From Acidobacteriota bacterium (GTDB lineage Bacteria > Acidobacteriota > Thermoanaerobaculia > Gp7-AA8 > JAHWKK01), in contig JAHWKK010000001.1 of NCBI GenBank assembly GCA_019347945.1, positions 131,299 to 195,298 of the forward strand: a DNA stretch of 64,000 nt, read 5' to 3'. Below, piece by piece: positions 42,548-51,350 of this stretch. Numbering within the stretch: the stretch's first letter is position 1; each line of letters begins with the position of its first letter. A model generated the notes under the pieces. That model was not told where the DNA came from. It ran no database searches and saw only the letters and a program-made list of their open reading frames with translations. The translations under genes were made by a program, and so were the position numbers.

Positions 42548-42994
42548 TCAGTTCTCGACGGTCTTGCCGATTTCGATCTTCCGAGGTTTCGCTTCTTCCT
42601 TCTTCGGAAGAGCGACCTCGAGAACGCCGTCCTCGTAGGACGCCGAGATCCTCTCGGAGTCGACGGACCGCGGAAGAGTGAACGAGCGGACGAAGCGTCC
42701 ATACGAGCGCTCGACCCGGTGATAGTTGCGCTCTTTGGTCTCGTCCTCGAACTCGCGCGTCCCCTCGAGAGTGAGAACGCCGTTCTCGAACGAGATGTTG
42801 ATGTCCTCTTTCCGGATCCCGGGCAGCTCGGCCCGGACGACGATGGTGTCGTTCTCCTCCATGATATCTACGGCCGGGGCCCAGCCGTTCTGGGGGACCG
42901 AGTCGTCGTCGAAGCGGCCTGCGGTCTCGAACAGCCGGCTGAGATCGCGCTGGATCTGGTTGAAAGGAAATGATCTTCGTACCTGAATCGCCAT
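42548..42994 (-). CDS. Hsp20/alpha-crystallin small heat-shock protein
   Basis: The 148-residue holdase binds unfolding proteins. The alpha-crystallin domain spans about 38-145 with 'APAVDIMEENDTIVVRAELPGIRKEDINISFENGVLTLEG' elements and the A-x-x-x-n-G-v-L motif 'ASYEDGVLEVALPK'. The C-terminal I-E-I is close to the I-x-I anchoring motif. AAGGAGG lies five bases before ATG 42994 and only two before ATG 42997, so the second is preferred. Its upstream gap is AT-rich; I see no complete CIRCE element. Confidence 0.95.
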   Translation of the reverse strand: MAIQVRRSFPFNQIQRDLSRLFETAGRFDDDSVPQNGWAPAVDIMEENDTIVVRAELPGIRKEDINISFENGVLTLEGTREFEDETKERNYHRVERSYGRFVRSFTLPRSVDSERISASYEDGVLEVALPKKEEAKPRKIEIGKTVEN

Positions 42995-43088
42995 CATAGC
43001 CTCCTTTTTGGTCGATAGATTTTAGTGCTACTCATATATATTTATCGCTCTCGGGAGGAGAATTATTCCAGAATATGATGGTAAGACG

Positions 43089-43775
43089 CTAAGGTTTTGT
43101 ACCCGAGGGGGTTCGATTGGCCGGCCGGCGATGGTACTCGAGGAGGAAGCCGTTGAAGGGCGTACGACCCCAGAGCGGCTCCAGGTACCGGTCGAACCGC
43201 TCGGCGGGGAAGCAGGCATCGATCGTCTCGAGCGTCGGGACGTTGATCGTGCTCATAAGGTTCCATCCGGTGGTCCGGGCGAAGACCTCTCCGAGCCAGG
43301 TCACGCGGGAGCGCCAGCCGCGGTCGGCGAGGGTCTGTCTGAGAATGACTCGGGACCCTTCGGTCAGCCGCTCGCCGATCGAGCTCAGCAGGCTCTGCTG
43401 GAGATCATCGTCGAGGTAGTGGATGACGTCGATCAGCGCGACATGGCCGGGGATCTGGTCGAGCTCGGTGAGAAAGCGCGATTCGAAGGTCAGACCGGTG
43501 TAATTGGCCTCGGCCACCCGACGAGCAGCATCGATCTTGTCGCCGTCTCGATCGAGACCTGTGATCGGCGAATCGATGCCCGACTCCCGCAGGTAGAACT
43601 CGAGTACTCCGAGGCCACAACCGAGATCGAGCAGGGGCCGGTCCATCTGCTCGAGTCTTTGTGCGACTGCGGCATAGACGGGGTCGATGCGGATCTTCCA
43701 GTACACGTAGTTCGAGAGCCAGCGACCCTCGTAAAGGGCGGAGATTTTCGAGGCCATCGAGCGGGCGTGCGTCAA
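43089..43775 (-). CDS. SAM-dependent methyltransferase, last gene of NFGA/DUF1704/ATP-grasp operon
   Basis: The 228-residue class I methyltransferase has motif I L-L-D-L-G-C-G-L-G-V-L-E, motif II 'ITGLDRDGDKIDAAR' and motif IV-like 'ALIDVIHYLDDD'. The C-terminal part with 'WGRTPFNGFLLEYHRR' is not assigned. It starts 46 nt after the ATP-grasp gene on the same strand, with no terminator between, so it probably belongs to the operon and may methylate its product. Family members act on very diverse small molecules. Confidence 0.8.
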   Translation of the reverse strand: MTHARSMASKISALYEGRWLSNYVYWKIRIDPVYAAVAQRLEQMDRPLLDLGCGLGVLEFYLRESGIDSPITGLDRDGDKIDAARRVAEANYTGLTFESRFLTELDQIPGHVALIDVIHYLDDDLQQSLLSSIGERLTEGSRVILRQTLADRGWRSRVTWLGEVFARTTGWNLMSTINVPTLETIDACFPAERFDRYLEPLWGRTPFNGFLLEYHRRPANRTPSGTKP

Positions 43776-43821
43776 ATCTCTCAGATCATCCTCTGACCGG
43801 GGCTGAAAAATCCATCATCAA

Positions 43822-44874
43822 TCAGACCGTTGCCAGGGCTTTGTTATTGATGTTGCGCCCATACCGGCGCTTGTGCTCCAGCTTCCGCTCGAGCGAAGTG
43901 ATGACCGGCTCGCAGAAGTCCACTCCGAAAAGAACCTCGGCGCTGCCGAGTCCCCCGGGGCTGAAGACGTTCACCTCCATCAGCTTGTCGCCCACCATGT
44001 CGAGACCGACGAACCAGAGTCCGTCGTGAATCAGCTTCGGTCGGACTGCATCGACCAGCGCGAGCATTTCATCGGTGACCTCGACTTTGGCCACGCTTCC
44101 CCCCGCCGTAATGTTGCTTCTAATGTCTCCGCTCTTGTTGACTCGCCTGAAAGCAGCGTACTCACCGCTCTTTGACAGCAGCGGCTGGCCGTTCATGACG
44201 AAGAGTCTGACGTCTCCCTTTCTCGCCTCGGCGAGGTACTCCTGGACCACGACGTAGCCATCACGGCTGATCGCCTCGATCATCTGGTTCAGATTCGACG
44301 GATCATCGTCGCGAACCAGGAACACGCCAGTTCCGCCGGAACCCTGAAGCGGCTTAATCACCGCATCCCCGTCGAGCGCGCGGATGAAACTCTTGATTCC
44401 CTTCGGATCTCTCGAGATCAATGTTCGCGGCCGCACCTCCTCCGGGAAGTGCTGGAAGTAGGTTTTGTTGAGCGCGTTCGCGAGTGAGAAGGGGTCGTTG
44501 AGAACGATGACGCCGCGGCGGACCGCGAGTTGTGCGAAGAGAAGGGGGCTCAGCTGGGCCCACGGCCGTTCGACGCTGTCGGCGGCGGGGTCGTTTCTGA
44601 GGAGGACCACATCGAAGTCGTCGAGGCTCACGTCCTCTTCGATGGCCGAGTCTCCTCTGAGAATCTCGAGGTACTTTTCCCCCGAGGTTGCTTTACTTCT
44701 CTTGGGGAGACTGCGTGCTGAAGCGTGAACGATGCCGTCTTCGGACTGAAAGAATGAATCGACTTCGATCGTCCAGACTTCGTGGCCCATCTTACGGGCG
44801 ACGACCGAAAGTCTGGTCGTCGTGTAGACGGCGAGCTCGCTCTCGATCGAGTTGACGACGAGTGCCAGTCTCAT
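43822..44874 (-). CDS. Glutathione-synthetase-like ATP-grasp ligase
   Basis: The 350-residue protein follows the GshB plan: N-terminal Rossmann-like domain (1-120; 'DDFDVVLLRNDPAAD' resembles the region before the hinge), then the ATP-grasp fold. ATP and Mg residues are in 'DGDAVIKPLQGSGGTGVFLV', 'YVVVQEYL', 'DVRLFVMNGQPL' and 'LMEVNVFSPGGLGSAEVLFGVD'. GshB joins gamma-Glu-Cys to glycine, but no gshA is here and the flanking genes are unusual. A different carboxylate-amine ligation is likely. It overlaps the DUF1704 gene by 4 bp (ATGA), so the two are translationally coupled. Confidence 0.85.
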   Translation of the reverse strand: MRLALVVNSIESELAVYTTTRLSVVARKMGHEVWTIEVDSFFQSEDGIVHASARSLPKRSKATSGEKYLEILRGDSAIEEDVSLDDFDVVLLRNDPAADSVERPWAQLSPLLFAQLAVRRGVIVLNDPFSLANALNKTYFQHFPEEVRPRTLISRDPKGIKSFIRALDGDAVIKPLQGSGGTGVFLVRDDDPSNLNQMIEAISRDGYVVVQEYLAEARKGDVRLFVMNGQPLLSKSGEYAAFRRVNKSGDIRSNITAGGSVAKVEVTDEMLALVDAVRPKLIHDGLWFVGLDMVGDKLMEVNVFSPGGLGSAEVLFGVDFCEPVITSLERKLEHKRRYGRNINNKALATV

Positions 44875-46733
44875 GCGGCATTACTCCTGAGATCGAGCAC
44901 GGTACGACCGTGTCGCAACGCTTCGATCTTGGTTTTCGATTCGGGAAAGTCGAGATAGCGGGGACGAAGAGGTGGCGGTACGAGAATCTCCCGGCGCAGC
45001 AGCTCGCGGACGACCGGGATGTGCGATTCGGTGATCTTTCCCATGTAGAGGATCTCCATGTCACCGCCGTCGGCGAGGTAGTCGAGCAGATTGCGCAGTC
45101 CCCGGAGATAGATGGCATCCTTGGTCAGGCCGCCACCGCGCCAGACTCGAACGACGATTCCGAAAGCCTGACGGGGGGTGAAGCGGTGCTGATCGACGAG
45201 CTCATGGAAGGCATCATCGAAGGCGACTTCCTCGGTCCGCCTGCTGACTGCGATCACCCGGCCGGCCAGGAGCCGCAGCCGGGCGTCGCTGAGCTGGCCG
45301 ACGAGATACTCCGCGAGAACGGCGAGGCCCTCCTGAAGCTCGTCGTACCCCGCCAGCCCCGTGTAAAGCTGCTCGAGCCGCTGGCTCTTTCCGTTCAGCC
45401 ACGTGACGATGTGGGTTCCGACCTCGTGATGAAGCAGGGCATCGAGCCGGCTCCGCGGAATGGAGAGCGTCGAGGGGATGCAGAGGGTGCCGTTGGTGAC
45501 CATCAGGCTCGTGATCTCGGGAAGCACTTCGACTCCCGCCTCGACCCCGGGCAACTGATCCCTGTAATGATCGAGCTCCTCGCGGGCCAGTCGCTCGAAA
45601 GCACCCGCGTCGATTCGATCCTCAGTCGGGGTTTTCGACGTCGGAGGATCGACCGTGGAAAGAATCTCGCCGGCCAGCTCCGCGAGCTCCTGCTCGACCG
45701 GACCGTAGAGCTGCAGACTGTTGTAGATGAATCGGTCGGTGTTCCTCTCCTCGAGCATCGTCAGCATGCGGGCGAGCTCGGCGCGCTTTTCACGAAAAAG
45801 ATGGCAGAGTGTCGGATCCTCCACCTCGTCGATCGGAATCCGATAGAGGTCCCCCTTGGCAATTTCGGGATCGATGGTGAGCCGGCGGTATTCGAAGCGC
45901 GGCTCTCCTCGAAACCCGCTCTCCTGAAACTCTCTCCATGCCTGCTGCTGGTTGACGGGAGTCACGTCGAGAAGAAACCCGAAGCTGTCGGCGATGCGCG
46001 TGAGCTCACGATCGACGACCCAGTCGGAATCGATGACCTCATGCCTTCCGAGCGATTCGAAGTGCGCAGGCTGACAGTGGGTATTGCTGCGACAGAATGA
46101 AAATGCGGTTCTCTGAAGCGCGCGTGAAAGTTGCCGGCGGAGCTCCTGGAGTACGATCGGAAATGGCTGTCCCGTGGCGGGATTCACGTGGACCGGAGTG
46201 ATCTCGAGTGCGATATGGATCGAGCTCGGCATCGTTTCGAGCGGTGGCGGCTCGGTGTCGATGATCTCGATGACCGCGTTTTCGTCGAAAAGCCGGATCG
46301 GTTCCAGGCTCTCGGCGAGAACCCTCGCGATCGGTTGTGGGGCTTCGCCGGCACATATCCGAAACGATGGCCGTGGGACTGACCGCCCCTCGGTCTTCGG
46401 AACGTCGCGGAGCACGCCGTTCACAATTTCGATGATCAGTAGTGGGTCGGGCAGGATTGCCGACTCGATGGTCCCGATGAGAGATTCGGCGACCGAGCCC
46501 TCTGCCGGCGCCACCAGGCACGAAGACTCGGTGAGTACGAAAAGCTCGCTCTCCCAGCTCCTCTGGTCCTCGGGAGGTCGGTAGAAAAAGAGAAACGGCA
46601 GCTGCCGCTCGAAATAGAGCCAGCCCCATTCGGGAAGACCGAGTCTGACCGTCCGGCCGTCCCGAATCGAATTCGTGACTTCGTTGAGCTCTTCGGCCGA
46701 GACCGATTCGAGCTGGCGTTCGGCAACGATCAT
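44871..46733 (-). CDS. DUF1704 (MATCAP/QEGLA-type) metallopeptidase
   Basis: The 620-residue protein has a divergent N-terminal domain (about 1-230) and a DUF1704 peptidase domain (about 240-600). The zinc motif is H436-E437-V-G-T-H441 (H-E-x-x-x-H), and Q467-E-G-L-A gives the 'QEGLA' name. Human MATCAP proteins of this family remove the C-terminal tyrosine of alpha-tubulin; bacterial members are annotated as flavohemoglobin-modulating proteins without known substrate. It overlaps both neighbours by 4 bp: the N-formylglutamate amidohydrolase-like gene before it and the ATP-grasp gene after it. It probably trims the C-terminal residue of a peptide or conjugate. It is cytosolic (no signal). Confidence 0.88.
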   Translation of the reverse strand: MIVAERQLESVSAEELNEVTNSIRDGRTVRLGLPEWGWLYFERQLPFLFFYRPPEDQRSWESELFVLTESSCLVAPAEGSVAESLIGTIESAILPDPLLIIEIVNGVLRDVPKTEGRSVPRPSFRICAGEAPQPIARVLAESLEPIRLFDENAVIEIIDTEPPPLETMPSSIHIALEITPVHVNPATGQPFPIVLQELRRQLSRALQRTAFSFCRSNTHCQPAHFESLGRHEVIDSDWVVDRELTRIADSFGFLLDVTPVNQQQAWREFQESGFRGEPRFEYRRLTIDPEIAKGDLYRIPIDEVEDPTLCHLFREKRAELARMLTMLEERNTDRFIYNSLQLYGPVEQELAELAGEILSTVDPPTSKTPTEDRIDAGAFERLAREELDHYRDQLPGVEAGVEVLPEITSLMVTNGTLCIPSTLSIPRSRLDALLHHEVGTHIVTWLNGKSQRLEQLYTGLAGYDELQEGLAVLAEYLVGQLSDARLRLLAGRVIAVSRRTEEVAFDDAFHELVDQHRFTPRQAFGIVVRVWRGGGLTKDAIYLRGLRNLLDYLADGGDMEILYMGKITESHIPVVRELLRREILVPPPLRPRYLDFPESKTKIEALRHGRTVLDLRSNAA

Positions 46734-47503
46734 CGAAGCACCGCTTCCAGAAGTTCGACCAGGCCGCGCGTCATCTCCTCATATGCCTGAATGATTCCCT
46801 GGTCGGGCTCGCCGGTCCACTCGTTCATGAATGTCTTCTTGAGCTCGACGGCGATGGAGCAACCCGAATTCGGAAAAGAGCGATGAATCCAGCGAGGGAG
46901 CTCACCACCCCGGAACCGCACATTCTCCCGGACGTCGAGCTTCCGTCCGGCCCGGTCGAAACGTCGCATTTCCCTCATCACACCGTCGACGATACTGGTC
47001 CAGCGATCCCGTTCCATCGACCCGGTCCCGATGTTGATGTCGGGATTGTCGTTCTGGGCTTCAGGCTGCGCGTCGGGTCCCAGGCGGCGGTAGTTGTAAG
47101 AGTGAATGTCGAGCAAAGCGAACTTTCCGTGCGTCTCGACCTTCGCTTCGAGAATTTCCTCGAGCTCGCGATAGAACTCGTCGTACATCCAAAGGGATCG
47201 GGCGATGACTTCTGTCGATGGTTCGGTCCTCCAGAGATCGAGTCCCCATGCATCATCCGGCTCGCGGTAGACCGCCTTCGCGCGTGGACGGTTCAGGTCG
47301 ACTTCGAATCTGGAGGTTTCCACGATCAGGTGGGTCGGAGCCCGCGCCGCCCAGCGGCCTGTAAAAGGATCCTCTTCACGCAGCCTCGCTCCGTCGTCGA
47401 GCTTTGTCAGTGCGAGAAGCTCATCGCGGATATGGTGGCCGTGATGGATTGCGGTCGCGATGACGGGCCCGTTGCCGATGGTCGTGGTCCAGCCTTCTGA
47501 CAC
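46730..47503 (-). CDS. N-formylglutamate amidohydrolase-like enzyme
   Basis: The 257-residue protein shows 'AIHHGHHIRDELL' (metal-binding histidine region), 'EEDPFTGRWA', the family hallmark 'SRFEVDLNRPR' and 'LLDIHSYNYRRLG'. HutG-type enzymes hydrolyse N-formyl-L-glutamate in histidine breakdown, but no hut genes are near. Here it opens an operon with a DUF1704 peptidase and an ATP-grasp ligase, so deformylation or amide hydrolysis of an unknown substrate is more plausible. The start is GTG 47503; the stop overlaps the next gene (ATGA). Confidence 0.87.
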   Translation of the reverse strand: MSEGWTTTIGNGPVIATAIHHGHHIRDELLALTKLDDGARLREEDPFTGRWAARAPTHLIVETSRFEVDLNRPRAKAVYREPDDAWGLDLWRTEPSTEVIARSLWMYDEFYRELEEILEAKVETHGKFALLDIHSYNYRRLGPDAQPEAQNDNPDINIGTGSMERDRWTSIVDGVMREMRRFDRAGRKLDVRENVRFRGGELPRWIHRSFPNSGCSIAVELKKTFMNEWTGEPDQGIIQAYEEMTRGLVELLEAVLR

Positions 47504-47560: not shown

Positions 47561-49756
47561 CTAGGGGTGGCGAACGCCGCGACGTCTGGGAGGCGACTGG
47601 GGAGAATCGTCTTCCGCGGGGGCGAATCCGATCAGCGCCCGATGGACGTTCCCCCACGGCTGCTCGGGGCGGCGCGTCGATTGCCAGACTACCCAGGGAG
47701 CGAGTGGATCGATGAACGAGATCCGATCGCAATCGATGTCGAGTCTCTCGAATTCAGCGGGCCCGAGCGGCTGGCCCTCGAGGCCAAGCTCGACGCGGCC
47801 AGCCTCGCACGGAGCTCCGCGGCTCAGCCAGCCGAGGTGCCAGCCGCTGCCGGACGGTTCCACGCTGACCGGCTCCTCGGCCATGAAGGCTGCCGTCACC
47901 ACGCTGCCGCCCACGACCGAGGCGTTCGGGTCGACGACGAGCGAGCGAACGCGAGCACTCGAATCGACCCATGCGATCAATCCCAGATCACCGCGTCGCG
48001 AAAGGACGGGGTTCTCGAGGCCCATCGATGCGTCTGCCAGAAGGCGGCGCCTCGTGATCACCTGAAGAGAGGCGTCGTAGACATCGGCCGTCCTGGCTCC
48101 CTCAGGGTCTCCGGAGATCACGATCAGGCGATCGTCGAAGACCAGGAGGCCCTCGGAATCGCTCGCGCGCTCGGGAGTATTTGCCTGGAATTTGATCGCG
48201 AGCGAGTCATGATCGAGAAGCAGGAGTCTGCCGGTCGGCGAGCCCGCCGTGAACTGGAGCCTCAGCAACAGGCCGGCAGGGCCGGACGCCATCTGGGTCA
48301 GCGAGAGTGGACCGGGAATCTCGAGCGTGGCCTGGCTGACCGGAACGGGAAAGAGGGCGAGCGTGTCCAGACGCCAGATCCGGATCTCGAGCGTACAGCC
48401 GGTCGCGATGCAGCGCTGATTGGCTCCTGCGATGTAGATGTCGGTTCCGTGGCGCGCGAGACGTATCTCGCTGAACGGATTCATGGAGATCACGACGGGA
48501 GCGGGGAGAATGAGACCCTCGTGAGTTGCGAGGTTTGCCCTGATCCGTCCGTCTTCGGTCCAGAGAAGCAGCTTCGTTTCGGCGTCCCATTCCTCGATCC
48601 AGGGAAGCGCAAACGTGTTCGCTGCCCGATTCGAGAGCGTTGCTTCAATTTCGAAGTTTCGGCCGTCGAGCCTGAGAATCTGGATGCCTGTTCTCTCGGT
48701 AGTCGTCAGGGTCCAGACCTTCGAATCGCGGACGAAGATCGCGCCTGACCCGAGACCGAAGAGCGAATGTTCTACTCCCATGACGGTTCCGTCCAACGAC
48801 AGTCGATGGGTCTCCGTAGCGTACGGCGAGGAATCGAATTGCCCGCAGGAGAGAATGGTGGTGCTCGCCATGAGGTCAGCCGAGATGGCGGAGCAACGCT
48901 GCTCGAGTGAGAGCGGGGGGCCGATCAGGTCGGAAGATCCGTCGAATCTGACGACCGCCTGACGGACGCTCTGAGTGTGATCGAACCGGTCCTCCAACAG
49001 CACTGCGAGCACGAGTTTTTCGTCCTTCCACACCATCGAGGTGTCGCGGACTTCCGCGCCTGCGGGAATCGGCATGAGCGTCCGGGAGTCCACGATCTGG
49101 TTTCCGACGATGCGGCTGAGACGGACCTCGGAGTCTGTCTGCATGGCGAGCGCCACGGTGTCTCCGCTCAGTGACGCGGCAGCGAGCAGGCGCGCATTGG
49201 AGGCGACCACGGAGGGGGATCCGATCGGCTGGCCGTCGGGCGTGAGAAAAACTCCTTCGATCCGATTTTGAATCTCCGAGCCGATCTGCTGTCGTCTGGT
49301 CCAGAAAACGCGCCACTGATGGCCCAGTCCGACCGCGTCGATCGAGGTAAGGACCGAATCACCGATCGTCACCTCGCCTGCAGCGATGACCGGGTCCGAA
49401 AAGGGGAGCCCTTCCGAGTCGTAAATCTGTACGCGAACATCCTCGCCACTCCACGCGATCAGAAACGAAGTGCCATTGGATGCGGCCGCTTCGAGCGATC
49501 CGGTTCCGACGTATTCGCGCGCCTGACGCAGCGGGATGCCATTGAACGCGACCGCGCGGCGATAGATGTCGTGGAGATCACCCTCCGGTCCGTCAGCCCA
49601 GACCGCCAGCATACCGTCGGAACCGCCGACGAGGGCCACCGGCCTTCCACCGTCGACGCCGGCACCCATCGGTGAAGGATCGATCAGCGGACCGTAGAGA
49701 GTGAATCCGGCTGCGGTGGTGGCGACCAGGATGAAGATCGTCAGGACACGTTTCAC
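47561..49756 (-). CDS. Secreted beta-propeller-like protein
   Basis: The start is GTG 49756, behind GGAGG, giving 731 residues; the open frame continues upstream but without a signal. A signal peptide (K-R-V-L-T-I-F-I-L-V-A) is followed by long repetitive beta blades: 'GGSDGMLAVWADG', 'ASNGTSFLIAWSGEDV', 'LAAASLSGDTVALAMQ', 'KLLLWTEDGRIRANLA' and 'VLSRRGDLGLIAWVDSSARVRS'. The motif 'xxxxFLIAWxxxDxVRxxxxD' repeats through the chain, typical of exported propellers that bind ligands or pile up at the surface. No enzyme is recognised. Confidence 0.75.
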   Translation of the reverse strand: MKRVLTIFILVATTAAGFTLYGPLIDPSPMGAGVDGGRPVALVGGSDGMLAVWADGPEGDLHDIYRRAVAFNGIPLRQAREYVGTGSLEAAASNGTSFLIAWSGEDVRVQIYDSEGLPFSDPVIAAGEVTIGDSVLTSIDAVGLGHQWRVFWTRRQQIGSEIQNRIEGVFLTPDGQPIGSPSVVASNARLLAAASLSGDTVALAMQTDSEVRLSRIVGNQIVDSRTLMPIPAGAEVRDTSMVWKDEKLVLAVLLEDRFDHTQSVRQAVVRFDGSSDLIGPPLSLEQRCSAISADLMASTTILSCGQFDSSPYATETHRLSLDGTVMGVEHSLFGLGSGAIFVRDSKVWTLTTTERTGIQILRLDGRNFEIEATLSNRAANTFALPWIEEWDAETKLLLWTEDGRIRANLATHEGLILPAPVVISMNPFSEIRLARHGTDIYIAGANQRCIATGCTLEIRIWRLDTLALFPVPVSQATLEIPGPLSLTQMASGPAGLLLRLQFTAGSPTGRLLLLDHDSLAIKFQANTPERASDSEGLLVFDDRLIVISGDPEGARTADVYDASLQVITRRRLLADASMGLENPVLSRRGDLGLIAWVDSSARVRSLVVDPNASVVGGSVVTAAFMAEEPVSVEPSGSGWHLGWLSRGAPCEAGRVELGLEGQPLGPAEFERLDIDCDRISFIDPLAPWVVWQSTRRPEQPWGNVHRALIGFAPAEDDSPQSPPRRRGVRHP

Positions 49757-49913
49757 TGACCTCCACGATACGGCATGCGAACGCGTGCGTCCACAGGTTT
49801 CGGAACCCCAGCCGGAAAGAGAGACGCGCAGTCGGGATGATTGCGGGACCGGGAAGAACCCGACGGCCAGACGGTTTGATAAGGGTCGCGAAGCAACCAC
49901 GAAAGGAGTCGTA

Positions 49914-51350
49914 ATGGCGGAAGCAGGTGCGCGCATCGGATCGATCGGCCTCATTGGCCTCGGCGCGATGGGCAGGGGATTCGCTCAACAGCTCGGAGAG
50001 AACGACGTTCGTGTCGTTGTCTGGGATCTCGATCCCCGGAAACTCGAGGCCGCCGCGGACGAGCTGGGTGTCGAGAAGGCGGCGTCCCTCAGGGAGCTGG
50101 TGAGCGCTCTTCCTGCTCCCCGCGCTTTTCTGATCATGATCCCCCCCGGTTCGCGCATCGATGATCTGGTCGAGCTGATGCTTCCTCATCTGGGTGAGGG
50201 CGACATCATCATCGATGGCGGAAACTCGTTTTACGAAGATACGGCGAGGCGCGGCCGGAAATTGAAAAAGCGCGGCATCCGCTTCGTCGGCATGGGCGTA
50301 TCGGGCGGACCGGACGGAGCGCTTCGAGGCGCTGCTCTGATGCCTTCGTGCGATGAGGAAACGTGGGAAGTGATCGAGCCGCTTCTCAGAGCCGTCGCGG
50401 CGAAGGGTGCCGATGGTCCGTCGCTCGGGCGCATCGGGATCGATGGGGCGGGCCACTTCGTGAAGATGGTCCACAACGGGATCGAGCTCGGTATCACACA
50501 GGCTCTCGCCGAGACCTATGCGATGACACGCGACCTCATGGGCTACGACGCTGAAGCATCCGCCGACTTTTTCGATGCGGCGGGGGAGGAGCCGTTCGGC
50601 TCGTATTTTCTCGATCTCGCGTCGCGTGTGCTTCGCACGGGTGATGGAAACGGCGGCAGCGGAAAGATGGTCGACAGGATCGGTGACCAGGCCGACATGA
50701 ACGGGCACGGGCTCGATATCGTCCGGGCGGCTCTCGAGCTGGGAATGCCGATACCGTCGATCTCAGCAGCGGTCAACGCCCGCAGGATCTCCTTCATGAA
50801 GGATCATCGGGAGCTTCTCTCGGAGATCATCAGCCCTGCCCCCAGGGCGATGGAACCGAACCGGCGGGAAGAGCTTTCGAGCGTTCTGACGGAGGCGCTG
50901 CATGCTTCGATCGCATGCATCTACGTGCAGGGCTTCGATCTGATCCGGACGGCATCGACGAGGTTCGGATGGCATCTCGACCTTTCGGAGATCGCTCGTG
51001 TCTGGAAGAACGGGTGCGTCGTCCGGACCCAGCTTCTCGAAGTGTTCTGCACGACGTGTCGTGACAAGCCACAGGCGACCTCGTTGTTGATCTGCCGGCA
51101 CATCTCGCAATTGATCTCGGAGAGACGTGAAGCGTGGCGTCGCTGTGTCGGGATCGCGCAGGAGCACGAGGTTTCGGTGCCGCTGATGGCGGCGAGTCTC
51201 GCCTGGTTCGACGGGATGCGTACACAGCGTTTGCCGCAGAATCTGGCTCAGGCTCTTCGCGATGCATGCGGCCGCCACGGGATCGAGATTCTCGACGATC
51301 CGGGCGTGCTCCGCCATGGTGACTGGGTCGAAGAGACGGTGGCGAGCTGA
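49914..51350 (+). CDS. 6-phosphogluconate dehydrogenase family protein with altered phosphate pocket
   Basis: The 478-residue protein has the NADP/NAD Rossmann motif G-L-G-A-M-G-R-G, 'DIIIDGGNSFYEDT', and catalytic K184 and E191 in H-F-V-K-M-V-H-N-G-I-E. The fold and length match decarboxylating 6PGDH. Several substrate-phosphate ligands known from sheep and E. coli enzymes differ: the tyrosine after the catalytic glutamate is L192, and the K-G-T-G loop reads M262-N-G-H-G266. The later arginine and R-D-x-x-G-x-H near the end are kept. It may use another sugar acid. AAAGGAG precedes the ATG. Confidence 0.85.
   Translation: MAEAGARIGSIGLIGLGAMGRGFAQQLGENDVRVVVWDLDPRKLEAAADELGVEKAASLRELVSALPAPRAFLIMIPPGSRIDDLVELMLPHLGEGDIIIDGGNSFYEDTARRGRKLKKRGIRFVGMGVSGGPDGALRGAALMPSCDEETWEVIEPLLRAVAAKGADGPSLGRIGIDGAGHFVKMVHNGIELGITQALAETYAMTRDLMGYDAEASADFFDAAGEEPFGSYFLDLASRVLRTGDGNGGSGKMVDRIGDQADMNGHGLDIVRAALELGMPIPSISAAVNARRISFMKDHRELLSEIISPAPRAMEPNRREELSSVLTEALHASIACIYVQGFDLIRTASTRFGWHLDLSEIARVWKNGCVVRTQLLEVFCTTCRDKPQATSLLICRHISQLISERREAWRRCVGIAQEHEVSVPLMAASLAWFDGMRTQRLPQNLAQALRDACGRHGIEILDDPGVLRHGDWVEETVAS

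Follow-up and report, generated by a model that had tools for sequence, protein, structure and literature searches.

A three-gene cassette encoding two metallohydrolases and a GshB-like ATP-grasp ligase recurs in more than ten bacterial phyla

Loci in which an ATP-grasp ligase is encoded together with a peptidase are already known. In the RimK-RimB system glutamate is added to and removed from RpsF, and the rlo operon pairs an ATP-grasp protein with a protease that cleaves polyglutamate, the two cooperating in tolerance of hypo-osmotic conditions; cells devoid of the polyglutamate-cleaving proteases do not grow without salt, unless the ATP-grasp gene is lost as well (PMC12239564). In humans, TMCP/MATCAP removes C-terminal Tyr and Glu (PMC10499314). 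Here we analyse a locus of this general kind in a 64,000-nucleotide stretch of DNA from an Acidobacteriota bacterium (GenBank assembly GCA_019347945.1, contig JAHWKK010000001.1, positions 131,299 to 195,298; hereafter ‘the window’). It encodes a metallohydrolase of the N-formylglutamate amidohydrolase type (FGase, PF05013), a long protein of the MATCAP family (PF08014, the present Pfam name of DUF1704) and a GshB-like ATP-grasp ligase.

The cassette resembles RimK-RimB and RloC-RloA (rlo operon) of Pseudomonas in joining an ATP-grasp ligase and a peptidase in one locus. However, the peptidases of those systems are retropepsin-like, whereas the cassette hydrolases are metalloenzymes of other folds (a Pfam scan of the two returned FGase and MATCAP only, nothing retropepsin-like) and its ligase is of the GshB type. 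Human MATCAP1/2 (TMCP1/2, KIAA0895L/KIAA0895) share with the cassette MATCAP the fold, the HExxxH motif and the EEG/QEG metal site, but have a different N-terminal part; the cassette bacteria have no known tubulin substrate, and the partner ligase belongs to another ATP-grasp family than tubulin tyrosine ligase. The cassette FGase has the fold and family of HutG-type N-formylglutamate amidohydrolase (2q7s) and differs from it in locus context. Stand-alone bacterial DUF1704/MATCAP proteins (about 430 aa) belong to the same Pfam family, but carry an HE(G/A)xVH-type motif and no FGase-like domain. From the known loci of an ATP-grasp ligase plus a peptidase, the cassette differs in both peptidase folds, the fusion of a pseudo-FGase, the GshB-type ligase and the phylogenetic breadth. 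We did not find a description of it in the open literature, although an earlier mention, for example in reviews of ATP-grasp gene neighbourhoods, is possible.

Conservation of the gene order

The window locus consists of four genes on the minus strand, linked by two exact 4-bp overlaps and then a gap of 46 nt (open reading frame (ORF) listing). The first three form the cassette: the FGase gene (46730-47503, 257 aa, start GTG), the long MATCAP gene (44871-46733, 620 aa, start ATG), which overlaps both neighbours, and the ligase gene (43822-44874, 350 aa, start ATG). The overlaps lie at 46730-46733 (FGase/MATCAP) and 44871-44874 (MATCAP/ligase). Coordinates, strands, overlaps and gap are those of an earlier first-pass annotation of this DNA, which had also suggested that the three families co-occur in other genomes.

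That suggestion was borne out. Scanning a genome collection with an alignment of MATCAP sequences retrieved 80 loci. These are the loci that match the window protein best; the set is therefore biased toward the long MATCAP form, while the neighbouring genes played no part in its choice. According to the names in the records, these loci come from Calditrichota, Acidobacteriota, Bacteroidota, Planctomycetota, Gemmatimonadota, Kiritimatiellota, Poribacteria, Verrucomicrobiota, Pseudomonadota, Desulfobacterota, Actinomycetes and Polyangiaceae. Within the fetched stretches the ligase was present in 76 of 80 loci and the FGase in 69 of 80, usually in the order FGase-MATCAP-ligase, and several of the loci lacking one of them stop at a contig edge. 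Overlaps of 4 bp were found in several phyla, at 24 of 70 FGase>MATCAP and 16 of 75 MATCAP>ligase junctions, and rhizobial megaplasmids carry the same gene order with the same 4-bp overlap; pSymB of Sinorhizobium meliloti also bears the cassette. Such recurrence of the three genes in one order across more than ten phyla, together with that of the overlaps, puts the arrangement beyond chance.

To avoid this bias, four phylum-wide samples were drawn with the Pfam MATCAP model and then classified by motif, the long class being defined by HE[VIL]G[TV]H preceded by at least 380 residues and the ligase being sought in the fetched flank (about 1.5 kb). A ligase stood beside 19 of 20 MATCAPs of the long class, as opposed to 2 of 42 with other motifs, both weak matches. 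In addition, the ligase subfamily NF009110 scored above cut-off in only two of 149 genomes of the window's phylum, exactly the two that have the cassette. Most DUF1704 homologues are thus without these neighbours: the association expected by the first-pass annotation holds for the long subfamily bearing the FGase-like domain, to which the window protein belongs, and fails for the stand-alone proteins.

Domain structure of the two hydrolases

The FGase gene product matched PF05013 with E 2e-22 (80.7 bits, cut-off 28.9). Its AlphaFold2 (AF2) model has a mean predicted confidence (pLDDT) of 93.6, the top PDB match being the N-formylglutamate amidohydrolase 2q7s (E 9e-15), and residues H20, E43, E44, H134 and E220 are invariant among 38 relatives. 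In the MATCAP protein (AF2 model pLDDT 92.5), PF08014 was matched over aa 268-603 (E 3e-84), corresponding to a C-terminal metallopeptidase domain at about 44922-45932, minus strand. This domain carries the motifs HEVGTH (H436, E437, H441) and QEGLA (E468), whose four named residues are all invariant and which align to HEIGTH/EEGLA in the metal site of human MATCAP1 (7z5g); the E281A mutant of the human enzyme is inactive (PMC10499314). The corresponding part of the model matched human MATCAP 7z5g with E 1e-8 (Foldseek). The window protein did not reach the TIGR02421 ‘QEGLA’ cut-off (305 bits vs 339). When PDB sequences were searched with the window MATCAP alone or with the alignment of the FGase, nothing was matched; the matches were obtained with the profile and the models.

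The long MATCAP form is kept in 53 aligned relatives, and its N-terminal part had gone unnoticed in the first-pass annotation, where aa 1-260 were not recognized as an extra domain. The N-terminal domain (aa 1-262; 45948-46733, minus strand) has no Pfam match in any of the 53 long members. Profile-profile comparison (hhalign) with the alignment of the neighbouring FGase nevertheless gave 91.9 %, E 7e-7, compared to 0.2 % for the MATCAP C-terminal domain used as control. The model of the domain also matched 2q7s (Foldseek probability 1.00, E 0.019, of lower significance than the match to 7z5g). The extra domain is a degenerate FGase domain without the metal-binding histidines: from the alignment and the order of strands, FGase H134 would correspond to V104 in the window protein and H20 would have no His counterpart, whereas E220 would still face a Glu.

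A natural fusion supports this assignment. In Photobacterium sp. GJ3 (locus L089), an FGase domain whose metal site is intact (E 5e-16) is fused to MATCAP (E 7e-105) at the very position of the N-terminal domain, directly downstream of an NF009110 ligase; this protein passes the TIGR02421 cut-off with 448 bits. An FGase domain is likewise detectable inside the MATCAP frame next to the ligase in L108 (Bacteroidota) and L178 (Planctomycetota). Fusion and degeneration of the domain, taken jointly, suggest physical cooperation between the two hydrolases.

Some further members of the family deserve mention. In Vibrionaceae, the fused FGase-MATCAP gene lies near a LysR gene and a DUF413 (maoP) gene (L089 3805-6324; L088 4832-8290). 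In Vibrio sp. HDW18 no ligase is found next to the fused gene and the FGase metal-site His is replaced by Tyr, which together suggest a fusion in decay. The stand-alone MATCAP gene of Legionella adelaidensis is located between dapA and murI (L096 4737-6026), neighbours which suggest that the stand-alone subfamily serves another purpose, perhaps related to the cell wall. An UNVERIFIED record of Pseudomonas phage Y1 (L097 5001-5513) contains a MATCAP-like metallopeptidase segment with 33 % identity over the active-site region.

The ligase and glutathione synthesis

The window ligase belongs to the PRK12458/NF009110 subfamily, named ‘glutathione synthetase’ (413 bits, NCBIfam cut-off 408). Its nearest solved structure is Escherichia coli GshB (1gsa, phmmer E 1e-33), RimK-type proteins giving 6e-12 or weaker. 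It shares with genuine GshB (PF02951/PF02955) the fold and the residues binding ATP, Mg and carboxylate (K137, K174, R223, R244, R252, D292, E300 and N302). The cassette ligases nevertheless form their own clade apart from genuine GshB, with moderate support (83/88). Outside the catalytic core, D12, M168 and NVTSPT of GshB are replaced by N8, S179 and NVFSPG, and the cassette ligases carry an inserted, invariant R-x-W-A stretch; the differing positions probably line the acceptor site. Two or three ligase copies stand in tandem within one cassette in L016 (3118-5272), L032 (9890-14980) and L038 (6898-10951), from Gemmatimonadota and Planctomycetota; L032 also has a second MATCAP.

The distribution of gshA was then compared, using three families (PF04262, PF04107 and PF08886) in 40 cassette genomes. 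PF04262 was found in 5 of 40, PF04107 in 19 of 40 and PF08886 in 3 of the 21 tested, and all three were missing in 13 of the 40. Isolates are among these gshA-less genomes, including Parapedobacter defluvii, Sphingobacterium multivorum, Marixanthomonas spongiae and Algoriphagus vanfongensis. The first-pass annotation had seen no gshA near the locus; by genome-wide profile search the entire window genome has neither PF04262 nor PF08886, and the only GCS2 protein it encodes belongs to the YbdK family of carboxylate-amine ligases (503 vs cut-off 371), leaving no recognizable gshA. Conversely, five gammaproteobacterial cassette genomes encode, besides the cassette ligase, another GSH-S_N protein that scores much more strongly (E about 1e-46 to 1e-49); all five have gshA, and twice this protein is directly beside it.

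The cassette ligase is therefore very unlikely to be GshB: 13 of 40 genomes are without gshA of the three families, genuine GshB has a gene of its own, and the two differ in residues outside the core. A second glutathione synthetase operon with accessory peptidases would agree with the NCBI family name and with the ATP-grasp catalytic residues matching GshB, but against these points stand the gshA-less genomes, the separate GshB of glutathione-making relatives, the distinct clade, the change from NVTSPT to NVFSPG and the R-x-W-A insertion. Glutathione synthesis is accordingly disfavoured as the cassette function, and we regard it as very improbable.

The YbdK-type gene itself lies on contig 2 of the window genome, and the genes that flank it on its strand encode a RimK-like ATP-grasp protein and a protein resembling class-I glutamine amidotransferase. 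It marks another uncharacterized ligase operon in this genome (L098 4416-7619).

Genomic context and possible roles

Clustering of the neighbouring genes pointed to MscS, CorA, BrkB and SLC12-like transporters and to sigma-54 regulators in several phyla, examples of which were confirmed by Pfam; an Mrp-type antiporter operon is found close to one Roseateles cassette. With expectations taken from genome-wide counts, CorA occurred within 5 kb of the ligase in 6 of 40 genomes (0.11 expected, P 1e-9) and MscS within 10 kb in 8 of 40 (1.04 expected, P 6e-6). These P-values are optimistic, as the families were picked after clustering and the genomes are not fully independent; the CorA enrichment survives correction for thousands of families. 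Genes for sigma-54-dependent regulators, possibly dedicated to the cassette, adjoin it in three phyla (L017 11082-12506, L040 5059-6474, L049 1710-3146).

Published data on salinity are also relevant. In Photobacterium damselae, A0J47_RS17020, annotated ‘GshB’, was up 38.4-fold in 1 % compared to 3 % NaCl, and the next locus tag, RS17025 (‘QEGLA’), 27.5-fold (PMC10308900). From their annotation and the loci of Photobacterium GJ3 and DA100, the two are apparently the cassette pair. Orthologues of CorA, a mechanosensitive channel and a RimK-type glutamate ligase are commoner in brackish than in marine genomes (PMC10219603).

The fourth gene of the window locus (43089-43775, minus strand, 228 aa, longest start TTG), 46 nt after the ligase and in the same direction, encodes a generic class-I methyltransferase according to Pfam. 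It was assigned a step in the first-pass pathway; no tblastn match at E<=1e-5 was found in any of the 80 loci, so it lies outside the conserved cassette and was rejected as a pathway member, although it is possibly co-transcribed. It is followed after 92 nt, on the same strand, by a gene for an HSP20-family chaperone (42548-42997); L030 and L051 likewise have HSP20 genes at a distance of up to about 7 kb from the cassette. On the other side, 57 nt upstream of the FGase gene and on the same strand, lies a gene (47561-49954) that may belong to the same transcript; its 797-aa product has no Pfam match and shows what may be a signal or membrane segment close to the N-terminus. The window genome (3.72 Mb, 99.65 % complete) has a single MATCAP gene, the window being on a 325-kb contig.

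We propose, giving the idea an even chance, that the cassette is a write-and-erase system for amide bonds, comparable to RimK-RimB and rlo, with one amide-forming and two amide-hydrolysing enzymes, used in low-osmolarity or ion homeostasis. The ligase would activate a carboxylate as acyl phosphate and couple an amino acid to it, plausibly a Glu-like one. The FGase metallohydrolase and the MATCAP metallocarboxypeptidase would cut the same kind of bond beside a free carboxylate, reversing or trimming the product, and the degenerate FGase domain would probably dock the FGase subunit or hold the substrate. The cell would employ this pair of activities under low osmolarity or in ion balance. The general idea of the first-pass annotation, that a residue is added and removed, is supported; its separate ‘deblocking’ step is not.

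Several points weigh against our proposal. The write-and-erase model leaves unexplained the NCBI name of the MATCAP family, which refers to an effect on flavohaemoglobin expression; a literature search did not reveal where this name comes from. CorA and MscS were chosen for testing after the neighbour clusters had been seen, and most cassette loci have neither gene nearby; the FGase gene is also not seen in some Bacteroidota cassettes. Finally, the P. damselae pair is identified with the cassette by annotation and by two related species, and the transcriptome comes from a single experiment, in which 1,808 genes changed (PMC10308900).

What is written and erased could be a small molecule: the ligase would make a soluble di- or oligopeptide (an osmolyte, a counter-ion or a thiol-like metabolite) that the hydrolases mature or degrade. 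We rate this version just below an even chance. GshB and FGase, the nearest characterized relatives of two of the enzymes, act on small molecules, there is no conserved precursor gene, the context is osmotic, and the tandem ligases of L016, L032 and L038 would be expected for stepwise building of a chain. On the other hand, those MATCAP relatives whose substrate is known act on protein tails (PMC10499314), and for a single dipeptide, two different hydrolases plus an FGase-like domain that is not catalytic seem an elaborate apparatus. The ligase might instead extend the C-terminus of a cell protein, from which MATCAP with the FGase would remove the added amino acids, in a bacterial counterpart of RimK-RimB or of the tubulin ligase/detyrosinase pair. 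RimK-RimB is a precedent for this, and human MATCAP1, which has HEIGTH, scores higher on the cassette-type than on the stand-alone profile; yet its position in the tree is weak, the ligase is nearer to GshB than to RimK, and no target protein is co-encoded. This version appears rather unlikely.

Maturation of a ribosomally synthesized and post-translationally modified peptide (RiPP), in the manner of graspetides, would have the ligase cyclize or extend an encoded precursor that is also cut by the peptidases, and graspetide pathways do draw on these two kinds of enzyme. However, the 1306 small ORFs flanking the cassettes contained no family common to different taxonomic groups, although very short or divergent ones could escape, so that the short peptide gene anticipated by the first-pass annotation did not materialize; moreover, the ligase sits in the GshB branch and no transporter recurs as a cassette member. 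This explanation, like the glutathione operon, has very little to recommend it.

Returning to the write-and-erase proposal, its link to the human enzymes was approached with the fragment of human MATCAP1 printed in the PDB alignment, which scored 65.7 bits with the cassette-type profile, compared to 43.3 with that of the stand-alone DUF1704 proteins. The tree places it, weakly supported (69/77) and on a very long branch, with the cassette type, so that a kinship suggested by these sequences is a lead only. A bolder and improbable extension is that the cassette performs a bacterial cycle of C-terminal amino-acid ligation and removal on proteins for ion or osmotic balance, from whose peptidase the eukaryotic MATCAP descended; if true, the cassette would be the ancestral counterpart of part of the tubulin code.

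The cassette has so far been annotated piecemeal, as glutathione synthetase, N-formylglutamate amidohydrolase and a ‘flavohemoglobin expression-modulating’ protein, and at least one published transcriptome treats what is apparently its ligase as ordinary GshB. If these genes are viewed as a single system that ligates and trims in adaptation to low salt, a direct and testable hypothesis follows for an unassigned metabolite or protein modification, and the cassette offers bacteria in which the family of human MATCAP can be studied.

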